Positions 21,699 to 22,922 of a stretch of DNA of 64,000 nucleotides are shown piece by piece. Where the stretch lies: the NCBI RefSeq assembly GCF_947496985.1, contig NZ_CANMEZ010000008.1:124001-188000 (forward strand), in the 5' to 3' direction. The position numbers were made by a program, and so were the translations under genes. Origin of the DNA: an uncultured Kordia sp. (GTDB lineage: Bacteria > Bacteroidota > Bacteroidia > Flavobacteriales > Flavobacteriaceae). How positions within the stretch are numbered: the stretch's first letter is position 1; every line of letters begins with the position of its first letter. The notes beneath the pieces are model-generated. The model ran no database searches. It saw nothing but the letters and a program-made list of their open reading frames with translations, and had not been told where the DNA came from.

Positions 21699-21905
21699 TT
21701 ATCCTCCACACTCTTCAGGACATGTTAACGAACAATAACATGTAGCAATAATAGTACATGCATCCTGTTTTGTTTTGATAGTTTCCTTTATTGTTGTAGG
21801 ATTCTGAACTGTCATTTCGGTCCCTCCTTGTACACTTTTACTATGCAAATTAGAAATGATTTTTTTCCTTAATTGCAGTTTTTCCTTGAAATCTTTTTTC
21901 TTCAT
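21699..21905 (-). CDS. Class I lanthipeptide-type GG-leader precursor peptide (4th in tandem array)
   Basis: MKKKDFKEKLQLRKKIISNLHSKSVQGG / TEMTVQNPTTIKETIKTKQDACTIIATCYCSLTCPEECGG. Confidence 0.75.
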   Translation of the reverse strand: MKKKDFKEKLQLRKKIISNLHSKSVQGGTEMTVQNPTTIKETIKTKQDACTIIATCYCSLTCPEECGG

Positions 21906-22045
21906 AATGTGTTAAATTTAATATATGTGTAAGTTAATTACATGCTTTTTTATGTGAAAAGTAAAACTATTTTTGTTTCGCAAAAAATGTACAATTAGCT
22001 CCTAATCAATTATCTATTATATATTTTTAATACATGCAACTAGCT

Positions 22046-22291
22046 TTATCGACAATTACAATCAGTTTTACAAATAGAATTCTCTGTATCAGGACAAGTT
22101 TCGTTAGTTATTTCAGTAACACACAGTCCTGGTCTTGTAAAATGTTCTATAGTAATTTTAATTGTCTTCACAACTATAAAAGTCGTTGCAGGTACAATAG
22201 TTGCAGTTCCTCCTGTAATACTATTTTTCTGTAAACTTGAAATAACATTTTTATTCAAGTTCAATCTTGAATTGAAATCTTTTTTCTTCAT
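22046..22291 (-). CDS. Class I lanthipeptide-type GG-leader precursor peptide (3rd in tandem array)
   Basis: MKKKDFNSRLNLNKNVISSLQKNSITGG / TATIVPATTFIVVKTIKITIEHFTRPGLCVTEITNETCPDTENSICKTDCNCR. Confidence 0.75.
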   Translation of the reverse strand: MKKKDFNSRLNLNKNVISSLQKNSITGGTATIVPATTFIVVKTIKITIEHFTRPGLCVTEITNETCPDTENSICKTDCNCR

Positions 22292-22342
22292 AGGTATAAT
22301 TCTTTGTATTACTAAATTCGTTTATCCGTAAAAAATAAAAAC

Positions 22343-22380
22343 TATAAAATCACCACTAATGCTCGTGGTGATTTTATAAT
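22343..22380. terminator. Hairpin/attenuator between precursor genes
   Basis: AAAATCACCACTAATGCTCGTGGTGATTTT, 11-bp perfect stem. Confidence 0.65.
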
Positions 22381-22386
22381 TTTTAT

Positions 22387-22650
22387 TTATTCAGTTGTAG
22401 TAGGCACGGGCGTTGATGTTGTTGCTGGTACTGGTGTCGATGTCGTAACTGTTGTCATTGTACAATCAGTTTCTACTGATTTACAAATACGTGGATTTGT
22501 AATATGTTCCGTTAAAATTTTAATCGTTGTTACAATAATGTAAGTTCCAGTAGTAATGGAATCAGTTCCACCTTGAATACTGTGTTCTTGTAAATTAGAA
22601 ATTACTCTTTTTCCTAATTTAAGATTGTTATTAACTTCTCTTTTTTTCAT
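22387..22650 (-). CDS. GG-leader precursor peptide with Thr/Ser/Pro-repeat core (2nd in tandem array)
   Basis: MKKREVNNNLKLGKRVISNLQEHSIQGG / TDSITTGTYIIVTTIKILTEHITNPRICKSVETDCTMTTVTTSTPVPATTSTPVPTTTE. Confidence 0.75.
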   Translation of the reverse strand: MKKREVNNNLKLGKRVISNLQEHSIQGGTDSITTGTYIIVTTIKILTEHITNPRICKSVETDCTMTTVTTSTPVPATTSTPVPTTTE

Positions 22651-22670
22651 GAATATTGGTTTTTTAAAGT

Positions 22671-22922
22671 TTAATTAGAACAAGCTTCCGTATGACATGC
22701 ATCCATGCAGGTTGGCGGAATCGTTGTTATTCGTGTAGTATCAACAGGACATTCTTTTTCTGTATTTCCACCTGCGCAAATACGTTTATCTGTCCATTTT
22801 ATGGTCGTAATCTGAATTGGGTCGGAAACAACGTCAGTTCCTCCATGAAGACGATTTTGTTGTAAATTAGAAATGACTTTTTTCCCTAAACTAAGCTTAC
22901 TGTTAAATTCTTTTTTTTTCAT
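22671..22922 (-). CDS. Class I lanthipeptide-type GG-leader precursor peptide (1st in tandem array)
   Basis: MKKKEFNSKLSLGKKVISNLQQNRLHGG / TDVVSDPIQITTIKWTDKRICAGGNTEKECPVDTTRITTIPPTCMDACHTEACSN. Confidence 0.75.
   Translation of the reverse strand: MKKKEFNSKLSLGKKVISNLQQNRLHGGTDVVSDPIQITTIKWTDKRICAGGNTEKECPVDTTRITTIPPTCMDACHTEACSN

Follow-up and report, generated by a model that had tools for sequence, protein, structure and literature searches.

A dispersed family of class I lanthipeptide-type precursors in Kordia, probably matured in trans by a single LanB/LanC/C39 hub

RESULTS

The window analyzed in this study is a 64-kb stretch of the genome of a Kordia sp. (5.48 Mb; 99.98% complete), and it carries an array of four minus-strand open reading frames (ORFs) of 68 to 87 amino acids (aa), which lie where the original prediction had placed them (Table 1). 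By reading, the array is flanked by a LysE-type gene, fur, and purA, and the Cys residues after the GG number 5, 2, 5, and 5 from ORF 22671-22922 to ORF 21699-21905; both points had been claimed. The leader is indeed common to all four ORFs; however, its description as near-identical did not stand: it spans 28 positions from Met through GG, and 11 of these are invariant (our own count, which includes the start Met). The array leaders carry the LxLxKx5L motif as reported by Walker in 2020 (PMC7268733), and in all four cores, each Cys residue can be paired with its own N-terminal Ser/Thr. Two solitary ORFs with leaders of the same family and a hairpin, none of which had been seen on first reading, were also found in the window. 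The hairpin splits the array into an upstream and a downstream ORF pair, and two terminator-like sites were found at the array, compared with 0.4 ± 0.7 in shuffled sequences.

Table 1. Precursor ORFs and hairpin located in the 64-kb window
Feature	Coordinates	Strand	Description
Precursor ORF, 83 aa	22671..22922	-	Leader MKKKEFNSKLSLGKKVISNLQQNRLHGG; 55-aa core, 5 Cys
Precursor ORF, 87 aa	22387..22650	-	2 Cys in core; Thr/Ser/Pro tail
Precursor ORF, 81 aa	22046..22291	-	Core with 5 Cys
Precursor ORF, 68 aa	21699..21905	-	Core with 5 Cys; DACTIIATCYCSLTCPE motif common to congeners
Hairpin	22343..22378		27-nt arms; flanked by T-tracts, resembling a terminator on either strand
Solitary precursor ORF, 70 aa	30974..31186	+	Same leader family; 6 Cys in core; outside array
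Solitary precursor ORF, 54 aa	42960..43124	-	Same leader family; 3 Cys in core; outside array

A homologous leader family exists in the databases in the form of NF038153, the NCBIfam "class I lanthipeptide" leader model, which has a cutoff of 22 bits. ORF 22671-22922 (29.5 bits) alone passed this cutoff; the other three array ORFs scored below it (22046-22291, 21.9 bits; 22387-22650, 17 bits; 21699-21905, 8.2 bits). A leader HMM derived from the same genome, in whose training set all four array ORFs were included, gave E values of 2e-13 to 2e-12 for the four (2e-13 for 22046-22291 and 2e-12 for both 22387-22650 and 21699-21905). No match to LanB_N, LanC-like, C39, or SPASM domains was obtained in the 64-kb window, in agreement with the earlier claim that LanB, LanC, and C39 proteins are missing from it, and all matches in the genome lie elsewhere. 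The array is accordingly devoid of an adjacent LanB and LanC, which are usual beside a LanA gene but not strictly required.

Genome-wide, NF038153 gave 147 matches at an E value of ≤10, about 35 of them above the cutoff. These matches represent 93 loci, which are distributed over the contigs in proportion to length; no clear clustering on particular contigs was detected (|z| < 2 for every contig). Reading of the stretches around the matches yielded at least 197 distinct small leader ORFs, and an exact GG was present in 186 of 195 leader ORFs. When the whole genome was searched with a degenerate leader DNA pattern, 209 sites were found, versus 7 for the control, the same pattern read backwards. 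This pattern recovers 145 of the 197 known members (74% sensitivity), and the genome total extrapolated from the pattern count is an estimated 270 or so precursors (253 to 299); two further leader patterns (C and D) were dropped because they gave too many chance matches. The family in this genome probably consists of about 250 scattered precursor genes (range, about 200 to 300).

The same pattern found 88 to 223 sites per genome across all 11 Kordia species searched, compared with 0 to 5 sites in the other 150 Flavobacteriaceae genera, except for one genus with 14. In the genome of the latter (G088), the sites lie on several contigs and one LanB is encoded, which constitutes a smaller dispersed set outside Kordia. 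No regulatory motif common to the regions upstream of the precursor ORFs emerged: the only words enriched relative to other genes were A/T-rich, and these regions showed no enrichment of the Bacteroidetes promoter consensus.

The enzymes for which a genome-wide check had been proposed, LanB, LanCs, and a C39-peptidase exporter, are all encoded in the genome. Profile searches identified one Lant_dehydr_N protein and four LanC-like proteins, together with one C39-peptidase ABC exporter; the other C39 matches were a protein of 200 aa and two weak ones. One C39 protein, on contig C7, adjoins genes that read as a metal-type ABC transporter. A single locus (C1:474-485 kb), referred to here as the hub, contains LanB, LanC, a separate Lant_dehydr_C protein, HlyD, and the C39-ABC exporter, as well as an AraC-type regulator and two precursors with an LxLxK-type leader. 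The domain scores at the hub are 506 bits for Lant_dehydr_N, 244 bits for Lant_dehydr_C, and 156 bits for LANC_like. Hub LanB matches NisB across the dehydratase part and hub LanC matches NisC; by our own reading, LanC has the zinc-ligand motifs WCYG and LCHG, and Cys17, His91, and Asp107 of the C39 domain stand in the contexts expected of catalytic residues. The genome has a LanB and a LanC with the domains that define the class of a LanA peptide, and both the GG site and the C39-ABC exporter that characterize substrates of C39 exporters are present.

Exactly one LanB_N was found in each of the 11 Kordia genomes, and the hub synteny was kept in all 11 (LanC, Lant_dehydr_C, HlyD, and C39-ABC). 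Across the genus, identity to the hub of our genome was 95 to 98% for the C39-ABC exporter, 86 to 97% for LanB, 73 to 92% for HlyD, and 49 to 64% for the AraC-type regulator. The conservation of the exporter (L040 12889-15096) stands out against that of its HlyD partner, which is mostly about 74% identical, and is perhaps a consequence of having many substrates. Hub precursors were recognized in most Kordia genomes, with none found by regular expression in one (G003), and their leader (KLxLxKSRIAELN) is somewhat different from that of the dispersed precursors. A small ORF (MKSLKLKKVKISRIxNPHxLxGG...) follows the hub AraC-TPR regulator gene (L040 10427-10672; also hubs L134 and L136-L143), and the two are duplicated together in several Kordia species (L136, L139, L141, and L143), an arrangement that suggests a regulator-peptide pair.

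Three LanC-like genes lie outside the hub. At C1:150873-154270 (L041 2873-6270), genes for an APH-like kinase, a HopA1-fold protein, and a LanC stand in a row, a combination that we take to be the enzyme set of class V lanthipeptides; this triad adjoins a gene for a 460-aa protein with abundant GPTGTQGC repeats. On contig C15 (L042 9758-12976), the neighbors of a LanC are a stand-alone nucleotidyltransferase and three precursors, whose leader is MKKKFxRSLxLNKKSVASL; the TrRiPP survey mentions the combination of LanC and nucleotidyltransferase for Kordia (PMC11118758). Only one SPASM protein was found in the genome, and radical SAM/SPASM chemistry was rejected as the main maturation route on these grounds.

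Among 151 Flavobacteriaceae genera, NF038153 matches were present in 8, one of which (G066) is a 500-aa frame and was set aside. All seven genera with true leaders have LanB, which is found in 15 of the 151 overall (Fisher P, 2e-8, treating genera as independent and ignoring kinship); P was 2e-7 without our own genome and 1.6e-7 when the 500-aa frame was counted as true. Eight of the 15 LanB genomes lack an NF038153 match. In at least three other genera (G149, G088, and G113), some leaders are likewise encoded at a great distance from LanB or on separate contigs.

Lanthionine synthesis usually links a dehydrated Ser/Thr to a Cys residue further on. The cores contain 11.3% Cys, compared with 0.8% in long ORFs, and Ser/Thr stands N-terminal to Cys in such a way that every Cys can be assigned a residue of its own in 190 of 195 cores, as against 45 when the order is reversed and 93 ± 6 after shuffling. 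In a separate set of congener precursors (n = 32), the corresponding values were 32 forward, 5 reversed, and 17 ± 3 shuffled. Once similar cores had been removed, Ser/Thr was enriched 3 to 6 residues before Cys and depleted at positions -1, -2, and -7, with a further peak two residues after Cys. Shuffling within 8-residue blocks, which controls for position along the core, gave 83.8 ± 1.1% of Cys residues with a Ser/Thr 2 to 7 residues before them, compared with the 95.4% observed. Odd and even Cys counts were about equally common (92 and 102 cores, respectively).

The array was also found in Kordia jejudonensis (82% identity) and Kordia aestuariivivens. Beside fur-purA, 1 to 5 members are present in 8 of 10 congeners and none in the other 2. 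Core dN/dS values for orthologues or close homologues were mostly 0.04 to 0.46, these ratios being rough and dS saturated in several cases. ORF 22671-22922 and its K. jejudonensis orthologue gave a dN/dS of 0.04 for the core and 0.15 for the leader, the core being the more conserved part; for ORF 22387-22650 and its orthologue in the same species, the value was 0.20 over the whole ORF. Homologues of ORF 21699-21905 occur in two congeners. Paralogues within one array differ sharply, whereas orthologues do not. As judged from these ratios, the array is under purifying selection, and the peptides look individually maintained.

DISCUSSION

In this study, we have examined an array of small Cys-rich ORFs for which no maturation enzyme is encoded nearby. 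The evidence supports the original prediction that these are RiPP precursors whose leaders are of the class I lanthipeptide type and whose maturation would take place in trans; what the window could not reveal is the scale, with about 200 to 300 precursors for one LanB, genus-wide. We consider it likely that the ORFs are precursors of class I lanthipeptides that a single LanB/LanC/C39 hub modifies and exports in trans. In the mechanism that we propose, the single hub LanB, made up of Lant_dehydr_N and the separate Lant_dehydr_C protein, would bind the leader via LxLxKxx[IV][SA]xL and dehydrate Ser/Thr residues of the core. The adjacent LanC would then couple the dehydrated residues to downstream Cys residues, forming thioether rings, and the C39-peptidase ABC exporter of the hub would, with HlyD, cleave after the GG and export the product. 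Precursor genes and hub enzymes would meet in trans in a prochlorosin-like manner, but with class I enzymes. The action of the hub on dispersed precursors, ring formation, GG cleavage, and any biological activity are what we infer from the sequence data.

This interpretation is favored by the class I leader match, the size of the family in Kordia, the one conserved hub per genome, the co-occurrence of leader and LanB, the Cys-rich cores with their Ser/Thr-before-Cys order, the low core dN/dS, and the leader type that the hub precursors share with the dispersed ones. Against it must be counted the lack of enzymes near the array, the three array ORFs that fall under the NF038153 cutoff, and the LanB genomes (8 of 15) that have no match to this model. 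Furthermore, the hub LanB is possibly specific to the hub precursors, since their leader differs somewhat, and other enzymes could serve some of the precursors, since there are three further LanC-like genes.

The peptides may instead be cut after the GG by C39 and exported without modification by LanB, as disulfide-rich, secreted, bacteriocin-like peptides. Such a fate would accord with the GG leader and the one highly conserved C39-ABC exporter of the hub, with the Cys-rich cores, and with the absence of enzymes near the array; however, disulfides give no reason for Ser/Thr to precede each Cys, odd Cys numbers are about as frequent as even ones, and the leader is confined to LanB genomes. The Ser/Thr-before-Cys order, a statistical rather than a chemical argument, speaks for thioethers over simple disulfide peptides, and we regard unmodified export as improbable.

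We attach a similarly low probability to the maturation of the dispersed precursors by enzymes outside the hub, such as the nucleotidyltransferase-LanC pair, the class V-like APH/HopA1/LanC triad, or an enzyme of the radical SAM type. Such loci do exist, the first of them with three precursors whose leaders are of this type, and the TrRiPP survey reports rSAM-modified peptides in Kordia (PMC11118758). The single SPASM protein in the genome argues against the radical SAM route, and neither the class V-like triad nor the nucleotidyltransferase locus has a LanB-type dehydratase; both would leave the co-occurrence of leader and LanB_N across genera unexplained. It is very unlikely that the majority of the ORFs are duplicates in decay, without a product, and that only the hub precursors are made: the many paralogues and the birth and death of array members between species (0 to 5 copies beside fur) would fit decay, but the frames are open, core dN/dS is low, the core is sometimes more conserved than the leader, and the Ser/Thr-before-Cys order is nearly universal.

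In Bacteroidetes class I clusters, an LxLxKx5L leader, a GG, and a C39 protease have been described in a survey that ranged within seven genes of a LanC (PMC7268733). The Kordia family resembles these lanthipeptides, which include the NF038153 members, the pinensins, and the PedA peptides of Pedobacter lusitanus, in its leader motif, GG, C39 exporter, LanB, and LanC. They have been described within gene clusters, whereas nearly all of the Kordia precursors lie far from LanB. According to the TrRiPP survey, Kordia is rich in RiPPs, up to 176 precursors are predicted in a Bacteroidota genome, and ProcM-like enzymes are suggested for precursors without neighbors; in the sections of its main text that were examined, nothing was seen on a hub with a single LanB, on the co-occurrence of leader and LanB, or on synteny or selection (PMC11118758). 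That Kordia is rich in RiPPs has been published before, whereas in the open-access literature we found no account of a dispersed class I family that depends on a hub with one LanB, subscription journals being mostly outside our search. Taken together, we lean toward the view that Kordia maintains a genus-wide, one-hub, dispersed library of class I peptides, about 100 to 300 per genome and the largest known, whose members do not form a random pool but are conserved by selection; each may accordingly serve a function of its own.

The textbook case of one enzyme acting on many scattered substrates is that of the prochlorosins, which belong to class II. The prochlorosins and synechococsins of marine picocyanobacteria, in which ProcM or SyncM is accompanied by many ProcA or SyncA peptides, are similar to the Kordia family in their conserved leader, hypervariable cores, and genome-scattered precursors (PMC10783134). 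They have one modifying enzyme (PMC10783134), as Kordia has one LanB, which we infer to act on the dispersed precursors. The prochlorosins rely on a class II LanM and Nif11-type leaders, in contrast to the class I LanB and LanC and the short LxLxK leaders of Kordia; with NF038153-type leaders and LanB as the dehydratase found, the Kordia peptides are not members of the prochlorosin family, and their likeness to it consists of the 209 dispersed pattern sites and one LanB observed, joined by a presumed link between enzyme and precursors. The numbers also differ: the prochlorosin genomes examined in a 2023 survey have no more than 83 precursors each (PMC10783134), compared with at least 197, and an estimated 270 or so, in the Kordia genome studied here. 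If our interpretation is correct, Kordia, a culturable marine genus, provides a class I counterpart in which precursors are about threefold as numerous, the many-substrate strategy arose with a different enzyme type too, and a source of a substrate-tolerant LanB/LanC pair is at hand. Since orthologous cores are conserved between species, the genus would also allow the purpose of such a large number of lanthipeptides to be addressed directly.
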